Shown here in pieces: positions 1-6,762 of a stretch of DNA of 11,119 nucleotides (positions are counted from its first letter, which is position 1; each line of letters starts with the position of its first letter). A program made the translations under genes and the position numbers. Source of the stretch: Methylophilus sp. (GTDB lineage Bacteria; Pseudomonadota; Gammaproteobacteria; Burkholderiales; Methylophilaceae). The stretch lies in contig JAIXZQ010000017.1 in assembly GCA_027489475.1 (NCBI GenBank), positions 1-11,119 on the forward strand. The letters run 5' to 3'. The notes under the pieces were generated by a model, which was not told the DNA's origin, searched no databases, and saw only the letters and a program-made list of their open reading frames with translations.

Positions 1-952
1 CGAGCAAAAGCGGGCCGCCTACGATCAGTATGGCCATGCCGGAGTAGACCCCAGCATGGGGGGTGGCACTGGTTTTGGCGGCTTTGGCTCTGGGGGCTTT
101 AGCGATGCATTCGGCGATATCTTTGGAGATATCTTTGGCGGTGGCCGTGGTGGTCAACGTTCTAACGTCTACCGTGGTGCCGATTTACGCTACAACCTCG
201 AAATTTCGCTAGAGGAAGCGGCGCGCGGCACAGAAACTAAGATTCGTATTCCGGTGCAAACCAGTTGCGAAACCTGTCATGGCAGTGGTGCGCGTCCCGG
301 CACCTCGCCAGTCACCTGTTCGACCTGTAACGGCCATGGTCAGGTGCGCATGCAACAAGGCTTTTTCTCGGTACAGCAAACCTGCCCTAAATGTCACGGC
401 ACCGGCAAGATGGTGAAAGAACCTTGCCCCACCTGTCATGGCGGTGGCCGCGTTAAGCAAAACAAAACGCTCAACGTCAAAATCCCCGCCGGCGTGGATG
501 AAGGTGATCGCATTCGCTTGAGCGGCGAGGGGGAGGCTGGTGTCAATGGCGGGCCGACCGGTGATTTGTATGTGGTGGTGCATTTGAAACCGCATGCCAT
601 GTTCCAGCGTGATGGCGCCAACCTGCATTGCGAAATGCCGATTAGTTTTAGCACTGCGGCCTTGGGCGGAGAAATTGAAGTGCCTACCCTCGATGGCGCG
701 GCAAAAATGAAGATTCCCGCAGAAACGCAAACCGGCAGCGTGTTTAGACTGCGTGGCAAAGGCATTAAACCGTTACGCGCCAGTGAGCATGGTGATTTGA
801 TGGTGCATGTGGTGGTGGAGACCCCAGTGCGGCTGACTGAAAAACAGCGTGAACTGTTGCGCGAATTTGAGACCAGCACGCAGGCCGACGCGGGTAAGCA
901 CAGCCCAAAAAACAAAAGCTGGGTAGACAAGGCACGCGATTTTTTTAGCTAA
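1..952 (+). CDS. dnaJ: Chaperone protein DnaJ (Hsp40), 5'-truncated by window edge
   Basis: DnaJ is the cytoplasmic co-chaperone that delivers unfolded substrates to DnaK and stimulates its ATPase. The reading frame is open from base 2 to a TAA at 950-952, giving 316 visible residues. It enters at the end of the J-domain ([14 protein letters not shown]), so the HPD motif and roughly the first 60 residues lie outside the window. A Gly/Phe-rich linker follows (codons about 56-180). Next is the zinc-binding region with all four CxxCxGxG repeats ([32 protein letters not shown]; bases 266-448). After that come the two beta-barrel substrate-binding domains and a C-terminal end in KARDFFS. It is a type I (DnaJA) chaperone, not CbpA, because the zinc region is complete. 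The internal ATG at 56 is not the start. The usual upstream partner dnaK would lie to the left. No damage is visible. Confidence 0.97.
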
Positions 953-5725: not shown

Positions 5726-5770
5726 CGCAACTCAACCATCGCGCTGACCTGCGCCAGACTTTTCAGTCAT

Positions 5771-5800
5771 AAAAAAAGCCGTCCATAAGACTGCTTTTTT
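5771..5800. terminator. Bidirectional intrinsic terminator between MFS and folE2
   Basis: AAAAAAGC (5772-5779) pairs with GCTTTTTT (5793-5800). Inside it GTC (5781-5783) pairs with GAC (5789-5791) around the loop CATAA, with one C/T mismatch between the stems. The T-run on either strand allows termination from both sides: the permease on plus and folE2 on minus. It lies 20 bases past the stop of the displaced folE2 end (5822-5820) but about 150 bases past the present folE2 stop. Confidence 0.75.
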
Positions 5801-5819
5801 ACCACGACTGAGGTACTGA

Positions 5820-5887
5820 TTAATTCACGCGTTTGTCACGTTCAATCAACGCATACGCTGAGTGATTATGAATAGACTCGAAATTTT
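5820..5887 (-). pseudogene. Remnant of a second folE2 3' end (about 21 codons)
   Basis: Reading minus from 5885 to 5820 gives [19 protein letters not shown] then VN and a TAA. This repeats the C-terminus of FolE2, whose present end is the same 19 residues followed by DNA. An in-frame TAA lies directly upstream of the remnant, so it is not translated as part of any ORF. The first 45 bases are 43/45 identical to folE2. The rest encodes the same residues with different codons (GAA CGT GAC AAA CGC here, GAG AGG GAT AAA AGA in folE2). Its position 20 bases before the terminator suggests this was the original end of the gene. Confidence 0.85.
5843..5887. repeat. Direct repeat, copy 1 (folE2 3'-end repeat)
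   Basis: This 45-bp segment is repeated at 5979-6023 with two mismatches (C5850/T5986 and A5871/G6007), both silent in the folE2 frame. The offset is 136 bp. Similarity ends abruptly on the right after AAATTTT, and on the left it weakens to protein-level only. Confidence 0.9.
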
Positions 5888-5948
5888 AGTTTCGGTCGCT
5901 GGGCTTAACATTGAAATCGATGTTAGCCTACACTGAAATTTCGAGTCT
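5874..5948. repeat. Large inverted repeat with nested palindrome in folE2 3' UTR
   Basis: AGACTCGAAATTT (5874-5886) and AAATTTCGAGTCT (5936-5948) are perfect 13-bp inverted arms. They extend inward by AGT/ACT after one T-G pair. Nested inside, GGC-T-TAACAT (5902-5911) pairs with ATGTTA-GCC (5920-5928) with one bulged T. The whole 75-base unit could fold as a long RNA hairpin or a cruciform. The left arm is part of direct-repeat copy 1; the right arm is an inverted third copy of the same folE2-derived sequence. Confidence 0.85.
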
Positions 5949-5952
5949 GGTG

Positions 5953-6762
5953 TTATGCGTTATCTCTTTTATCCCTCTCAATCAATGCATACGCTGAGTG
6001 ATTATGGATAGACTCGAAATTTTCGGACTCAACCACATATTGCACGATGCGTTTCTCATCGTTGAGTTGGGCGGCCACATCGCGCACCATGTCTTCAACA
6101 AATTTTGGATTGTCGTACGCGCGTTCAGTCACATATTTTTCATCTGGACGCTTGAGCAAGCCATACAACTGGCAAGAGGCTTGGTCTTCAATCAGGGTAA
6201 TCAAATCTTCTAGCCACATAAACTCGTTGAGCGTGGCGGTGACTGTGACGTGTGAACGCTGGTTGTGTGCACCATAATTAGAGATTTTTTTGCTGCATGG
6301 ACACAAACTGGTCACCGGCACCATGACTTTGACGGTGATTTCAAATTGGCCATTTTTGATTTCGCCGATAAAAGTCACTTCATAATCCAACAAGCTTTTG
6401 ACCCCAGACACCGGAGCTGCTTTGTTGATAAAGTAAGGGAAGCGCATTTCAACATAGCCAGATTCGGCTTCAAGACGCTCGACCATTTGACGCAAAATCG
6501 ACTCAAAGGAATCGATGGAAATCGCATGCGCATTCATGTTTAAAATCTCGACAAAGCGAGACATGTGCGTGCCTTTAAAGTTATGTGGCAGATGCACATA
6601 CATGTCAAACACCGCAACGGTATGCTGTTCGCCACCGGTTTTGTCTTTCACAATCACCGGATGACGGATGGATTTAATGCCGACTTTGTTGATATCCAGT
6701 CTGCGTACATCTGGGGTATTTTGAACATCTTCGATGGTGGTGGGGATCACGGGTTGGTTCAT
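5953..6762 (-). CDS. folE2: GTP cyclohydrolase I type IB (FolE2)
   Basis: FolE2 converts GTP to 7,8-dihydroneopterin triphosphate, the first step of folate and related pterin synthesis in the cytoplasm. It is the type IB enzyme of the tunnelling-fold superfamily, which can work with metals other than zinc. The protein has 269 residues, the usual length. Family features are RHPVIVKD near 33-40, the metal/active-site cysteine segment [21 protein letters not shown] (151-171), and the C-terminal IHNHSAYA (252-259) carrying a histidine known in the family as a metal ligand. The C-terminal codons use AGG and AGA arginines, unlike the CGT/CGC in the remnant copy downstream, so the last part of the gene looks replaced. 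The start is ATG at 6762 with only a weak SD (GGAA). It follows dxs by 47 bases and has its own promoter. Confidence 0.96.
5979..6023. repeat. Direct repeat, copy 2 (inside folE2 3' coding end)
   Basis: This is the partner of 5843-5887, 43 of 45 bases identical. It covers codons for NFES through ALIE of FolE2. Together the two copies bracket a 136-bp repeat unit, resembling the left and right attachment sites of an integrated element. Confidence 0.9.

Follow-up and report, generated by a model that had tools for sequence, protein, structure and literature searches.

A probable small mobile cassette with a predicted folded core at the 3' end of folE2 in Methylophilus and at many other gene ends

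The folE2 gene in an 11,119-nucleotide stretch of Methylophilus sp. DNA (contig JAIXZQ010000017.1; hereafter the window) ends in a 136-bp unit that is probably a non-coding, non-autonomous, site-specific mobile cassette, inserted precisely as a folded single strand with the help of an arm that contributes to the choice of the cut. The unit has three parts: a replacement gene end (R'), an arm whose sequence is complementary to the beginning of R', and a core of about 40-65 nt predicted to form a three-way junction. Such units insert exactly at G|ANAA, without target duplication beyond the gene end that they bring, and R' keeps the target gene complete. The order R', arm, core with covarying stems, and displaced native end recurs at many genes, also in tandem. 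The features of the window are as follows.

5953..6762, minus strand: folE2, now with the replacement end (open reading frame; NCBIfam NF010200, GTP cyclohydrolase FolE2, 311 bits, cut-off 215).
5888..6023, minus strand: whole inserted unit of 136 nt (replacement end, arm and core); boundary G|AAAA; architecture like that of the 134-bp insertion in the related genome G015.
5953..6023, minus strand: replacement (foreign) gene end R', stop codon included; identity over 66 nt of 93.9% with the unit in genome G013 and of 90.9% with the one in G007.
6010..6022, minus strand: start of R', pairing partner of the arm; 13/13 positions complementary to 5936-5948.
5936..5948, minus strand: arm (minus-strand sequence AGACTCGAAATTT), with complementarity to the starts of R' and of the displaced end (inverted repeats; 11/11 positions pair in the unit comparison).
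5888..5935, minus strand: conserved core with a predicted three-way-junction fold (36.5 bits in the search with covariance model R1; genome-wide E 6.2e-7).
5820..5887, minus strand: displaced native folE2 end (..ERDKRVN*), a direct repeat with final codons similar to those of the single-ended genes in related Methylophilus.
5770..5802, minus strand: terminator-like hairpin and T run past the displaced end, recognized by eye; empty-site relatives have a similar hairpin directly after their single end.

The original prediction of two folE2 3' ends 136 bp apart was confirmed. A repeat search of the window returned 5832-5887 and 5968-6023 as a direct repeat of 56 nt with 89% identity and a spacing of 136, of which a 45-bp part (5843-5887 and 5979-6023) differs at two positions only. 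The folE2 frame now terminates in ..ERDKRDNA*, while the displaced copy downstream terminates in ..ERDKRVN*, and four of the five ERDKR codons differ between the current end (GAG AGG GAT AAA AGA) and the displaced one (GAA CGT GAC AAA CGC). The latter stands about 20 nt ahead of the terminator-like hairpin, as judged by eye. The repeat search also found an inverted copy of the start of the repeat at 5936-5948, between both end copies, and the minus strand of the region folds better than shuffled sequences (z -3.68 for 5820-6030, with 0/200 shuffles equally good; z -5.82 for 5872-5950). Because double folE2 ends are also present in other, independent genomes, chance and an assembly artefact were dismissed.

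A search for folE2 in 81 genomes gave a match in 72. Extra C-terminal fragments were located just 3' of the gene in G008, G019, G015, G007, G013, and G029, and G068, which belongs to another family, encodes five folE2 end fragments in tandem, about 145 bp apart. Among the 22 Methylophilus genomes, a folE2 unit was found in seven (G000, G007, G008, G013, G015, G016, and G019); the unit of G016 was overlooked by the motif test and was recovered by the covariance model search. The other 15 have a single end, as seen in the motif test, and in none of them did the covariance model search detect a core close to folE2 (E<=0.001). Two side observations belong here. G068 also carries integron integrase fragments (G068:C1:1442478-1442951). 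In G023 and G045, another repeat unit, unrelated and about 135 bp long, is present just after folE2 in one and two copies, respectively (L041 and L042), and likewise duplicates the folE2 end; its GC-rich middle is a different one, and its TTCGAAATT arm matches gene sequence immediately upstream of the boundary.

G015 and G021 were the one near-identical filled/empty pair seen; their folE2 bodies are 97.1% identical over 480 nt. G021 has an empty site with one end, and in the alignment G015 carries 134 additional bp inserted exactly at G|AAAA, its recipient sequence reaching both boundaries. The end displaced in G015 matches that of G021 at 98.5% identity, and the new end is 97% identical to the unit of a distant species, G008; the folE2 bodies of G008 and G015 share at most 84.2% identity. 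The unit of G015 arrived with a foreign gene end and, since recipient sequence extends up to both boundaries, without donor flanks, in this one pair. An exact loss from G021 would look identical and would amount to such an event running backwards. The new end in the window is foreign as well, as had been supposed: G013 and G007, the genomes with the matching units, have folE2 bodies at most 83.3% identical to that of the window and lie outside its five closest bodies. The view that incoming DNA with its own folE2 3' end displaced the native one is thus upheld by the 15/22 single-ended Methylophilus genomes, by the foreign end in the window, and by the comparison of G015 with G021. In contrast, the reading of the 45-bp near-identical stretch as an att core was not supported. 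The two copies are 71% identical in G007 and 67% in G013, and in G015 they diverge from the fifth base on; the shared stretch is therefore ANAA only, and the 45-bp identity in the window is probably due to later gene conversion.

A restriction to folE2 was not supported either, as the same core was found at many other gene ends. Cores lie behind the ends of smpB, proB, nrdA, transketolase, metK, pilT, gapA, gyrB, yggX, and dps according to NCBIfam, which was queried with at most the last 330 residues, so that nrdA, transketolase, gapA, and gyrB fall below whole-protein cut-offs; Dps is also below its cut-off. Our own reading of the sequence adds acs, dnaJ, a motA-like gene, xerC-like genes, argF, galU, and ftsW. 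The dnaJ gene that ends in the window (2-952) has its counterpart as a core target in another genome (L175). Further cores are present at tRNA-Ser (anticodons GGA, TGA, and CGA), tRNA-Phe, and tRNA-Leu, and ARAGORN predicted an intact tRNA in 12 of 15 tRNA loci. The target gene is restored by the element in the folE2 units, at the mapped gene ends, and in those 12 tRNA loci.

The site analysis used 54 of 174 cores, in which the arm has a gene end no more than 60 nt away. It gave 28 distinct gene ends, mapped through the arm, with an error in mapping for one site (L005) and a wrong gene frame for L192, and including the same gene from different species (folE2, 5; proB, 5; metK, 3). G precedes and A follows the boundary in 27 of them, 26 read G|ANAA, and in 26/28 the boundary splits a codon behind its first base. 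The other end of the core is mostly GCC, but also GAC, GTC, or ACT, followed by the next A. Unit length tracks the distance from the site to the gene end (80-99 bp at proB, 103 at nrdA, 125-129 at metK, and 136-145 at folE2), and an early assumption of a fixed length of about 140 bp was dropped.

The predicted fold of the core comprises an outer stem, a GTA/GRA internal loop, a second stem, and two end hairpins, and unaided DNA folding of L060 and L187 also gave this three-way junction. The covariation score over 30 of the 44 less-similar cores was 0.212 versus 0.099 for shuffled alignments (0/500 as high; slid versions reached at most 0.060). The number of further pair types was not above shuffles (457/500 as high), and that of pairs changed on both sides was only moderately so (17/500 as high). 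It should be noted that most cores were collected with patterns fixing GTAGGCTAAC..GTTAAGC, and some also GGCCGRAG; the invariance of these columns proves nothing, and only free columns were therefore counted as covariation. Among 147 distinct cores, the outer stem is GGC/GCC in 112, GTC/GAC in 13, GGT/GCC in 8, GGC/GTC in 5, AGC/GCT in 2, GAC/GTC in 1, and another in 6, and a C..A mismatch at the boundary is retained in 144. Six stretches had folding z-scores of -5.8 (the window), -5.6, -2.5, -5.1, -0.75, and -3.3, the fifth being L126, which folds no better than shuffles and has a non-matching right flank. Since G.T exceeds A.C among the outer-stem mismatches (14 versus 2), the strand shown is favoured as the folding one; this is countered by the opposite strand, which in L178 folds almost as well as the strand shown and in the tested cases of L060 and the window equally well or better, and on these models the folded form may be either RNA or DNA.

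A strict core pattern matched 38 times in 18/399 genomes of the order, versus 3 times for the reversed pattern. A scan of a large contig collection (genome_contigs) with one strict pattern gave at least 105 stretches, which is a lower bound; the taxon labels of core-bearing contigs are betaproteobacterial groups or unspecific (for example, Proteobacteria), with one Gammaproteobacteria. The covariance model detected the core in 19/22 Methylophilus genomes and in 7/398 genomes of a phylum sample. Within the genus, G004 had the most matches (16), and G009, G012, and G014 had none. Two genomes of the phylum sample are outside the order: the match in G626 (62 bits) looks real, and that in G469 (27 bits) resembles chance. 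A 72-nt composite query had no match among phages and plasmids at E<=1. Viral contigs gave 11 pattern matches; those inspected are without complementary stems and were rejected as chance. An Rfam search of nine loci (E up to 5) identified no family for the core, only two tRNAs reaching the gathering score. As further observations, a tRNA-Ser adjoining a unit on the minus strand of L097 (4115-4265) is overlapped by a match to sRNA family sX4 that, with 45.8 bits, stays below the cut-off of 70; core pairs of opposite orientation, about 97 bp apart, are found in G004, G007, and G021; and several cores of G004 are located at the ends of contigs, an indication of a longer multicopy repeat.

In many units, the arm is matched to the gene end of its own unit. 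A complement of the arm, with at most 2 mismatches in 11, was found in the own gene end for 31 of the 54 cores of the site analysis, versus 1.2% for shuffled arms. In a table of 53 distinct units, arms pair on average at 8.15/11 positions with their own end versus 5.48 with the ends of other units; pairing at 9/11 or more is seen with the own end in 24/53 and with 2.5% of foreign ends. The 124/178 cores for which no upstream copy was detected are omitted from this table, as are G015 and G016. In 14/53 rows, the arm pairs at 6/11 or fewer positions with its own end; registration was automatic and is wrong in some rows (for example, L070, L195, and L324). The arm fits its own end better than the displaced end in 21 of the 53 units, equally well in 26, and worse in 6. 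In the array of L178, the units at 1781 and 1929 have different gene ends, and each arm matches its own. Because arms match their own ends, those of neighbouring array units included, the arm and R' belong to one unit.

Other arrangements of the same parts were also observed. At the tRNA and xerC-like targets, a left hairpin (ACAACACGCC..GGCTTGTTGC) stands ahead of the core and the captured gene half behind it, and four cores in a row are present at tRNA-Phe copies in L187. In some genomes, core modules 69-76 bp apart occur in tandem within longer repeats. As these tandem modules lack gene ends, we infer that arm and core form the basic unit, which suggests that the gene end is an addition needed where a gene is hit. 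Modules of this kind, often in tandem, were seen inside dispersed longer repeats in one Burkholderiales MAG (L096, L105, L118, L166, L173, L183, and L191) and in Curvibacter (L119 and L168); these repeats have inverted ends (CTGCATAAC../..TTATGCAG or similar), as if a MITE had taken up the core.

We clustered 4680 open frames near cores and inspected the 40 largest clusters by eye; they contained target and neighbour genes and frames inside repeats, with no transposase or integrase except the xerC-like targets. A response-regulator family was present in 13 core loci at a median distance of 1.6 kb and was taken as a common domain. The original prediction had explained the double end by the collapsed attL/attR of an integrase-encoding island at folE2. 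The foreign end does replace a native one, as it does in islands that use gene ends, but the flank repeats at 131 cores (most loci covering 3 to 8 kb) delimited units of 69-155 bp only, and neither a larger, kilobase-sized insertion with an integrase between the same repeats nor an integrase recurring beside cores was found. In addition, a unit family with one conserved core of its own serves many targets, and in the window only 136 nt, with no recombinase gene, separate the folE2 ends. An integrase island, collapsed or miniature, is thus largely refuted and hardly credible. It is also very unlikely that homologous recombination, transformation, and hairpin slippage spread these gene ends with no dedicated element. 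The gene ends are homologous, the tandem copies of L032/L060 and L080 can come from slippage, and the window's 45-bp identity has the appearance of gene conversion; against this, recipient sequence in G015 runs to both boundaries and donor sequence starts exactly there, and the same G|ANAA boundary and the same core are found at unrelated genes.

The units might instead be moved by an enzyme known from other systems. Movement by an integron integrase (IntI), the units being unusual cassettes with an attC-like hairpin and gene ends the secondary sites, is unlikely. In keeping with it are the arrangement in tandem, insertion without duplication, and a folded single-strand site whose end loops vary. 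We searched for IntI in 22 core-bearing genomes, 399 genomes of the order, and 22 of the genus: it is above cut-off in 17/22 core-bearing genomes, nearly universal in Methylophilus (20/22), and enriched at the order level (13/18 core-positive versus 131/381 other genomes; Fisher p 0.0018). Integrons recombine in the folded site at the consensus G|TTRRRY, yet the junctions of the units are G|ANAA and GCC|ANAA (26/28 mapped boundaries reading G|ANAA), 0/54 IntI loci hold a core (flanks of about 1.5 kb on each side), and G018, which is 99% complete and has four cores, lacks IntI above 1e-40. IntI is so common in the order (144/399) and in the genus that kinship can explain the association. The enrichment is thus at odds with the junctions, the IntI loci, and G018, and integron attC was set aside. 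The remaining candidate, REP-like elements moved in trans by a RAYT (Y1 HUH) transposase, was largely refuted and is highly improbable. The pairing of the arm with the cut site resembles the guides of IS200/IS605, and the core begins with GTAG and a hairpin, as do REPs (PMC2817692); GTAG is common at the core start, with other bases at the second position, although most cores were collected with GTAG in the pattern. PF01797 was searched for in 22 genomes bearing cores or folE2 units and in 16 further Methylophilus. Y1_Tnp is present in 14/22 core-bearing genomes and absent from eight, complete ones among them; none of 30 Y1_Tnp loci holds a core, and its presence is unrelated to core copy number, G004, with the most cores (16), being without it and the coreless G009, G012, and G014 having it. 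Moreover, the core has three helices versus one in the REPs listed in PMC2817692.

Each single feature of the units has a precedent. Phages, ICEs, and satellites integrate in conserved gene ends and in tRNA anticodon loops, and the element restores the gene end. The units share the restored gene end and the tRNA and conserved gene-end sites; they differ in measuring 136 bp versus kilobases, in having no integrase, and in using one core for many targets. The single-strand transposons of the IS200/IS605 group select their cut sites by pairing with a short guide in the element and produce no target duplication, and both traits, guide-like pairing at the cut site and absence of duplication, have their likeness here. 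However, the pairing of the units is up to about 12 nt long versus about 4, gene ends are carried as cargo, and no transposase was found beside a unit, which with its 136 bp is too short to encode a Y1 transposase. Like integron cassettes with their attC, the units are small, arranged in tandem, precisely inserted, and provided with a folded single-strand site with a variable end loop. Unlike these, their cargo is the end of the target gene, the junction is ANAA instead of GTTRRRY, and the core is a three-way junction of conserved sequence scattered over gene ends and found at 0/54 IntI loci. REPs and REPINs, with their RAYT, are likewise short, palindromic, non-autonomous repeats starting with GTAG (PMC2817692). 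The units, in contrast, have three helices, a target-matched arm, and gene-end cargo, lie inside genes rather than in extragenic positions, and show no association with Y1_Tnp. Finally, SE elements (strand-biased circularizing integrative elements) are described in PMC9345347 as about 7 kb long with tyrosine recombinases of their own. Their formation of a single-strand circle is a possible model for the moving form of the units, which differ in their 136 bp and in having no recombinase of their own.

The units unite three features known to us only separately: a site formed by a folded single strand, a pairing arm matched to the target, and the replacement end of a gene. A search of the open literature, with subscription papers and preprints outside its scope, found no description of such units, nor any precedent for their combination of features and for the use of one core for many targets through different arms.

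The moving form of such a cassette may be a circle or a single strand of R', arm, and core, in which the arm, the core, and the start of R' would make one branched hairpin. A trans-acting recombinase would recognize the core, and the arm would help to place the cut, paired on one side with the start of R' and on the other with that of the target. The gene end would be a cargo by which insertion does no harm to an important gene; at the tRNA and xerC-like targets, the gene is oppositely oriented, with the captured half on the other side of the core. More tentatively, with slightly less than even confidence, we propose a target-programmable cassette system, in which a single-stranded three-way-junction core and a guide arm of about 12 nt direct precise insertion into particular gene ends by pairing, the gene end being repair cargo. 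If this is true, a new arm would mean a new target, which would explain one core at folE2, smpB, proB, gyrB, tRNAs, and others, and the arm, if it is a guide, would represent a new kind of nucleic-acid-guided integration. The pair G015/G021, together with G004 and its 16 cores, makes movement and the search for the enzyme directly testable. The units would rank among the smallest site-specific movers into housekeeping gene ends that also repair them, and would offer a route by which conserved genes gain foreign C-termini across species unnoticed.
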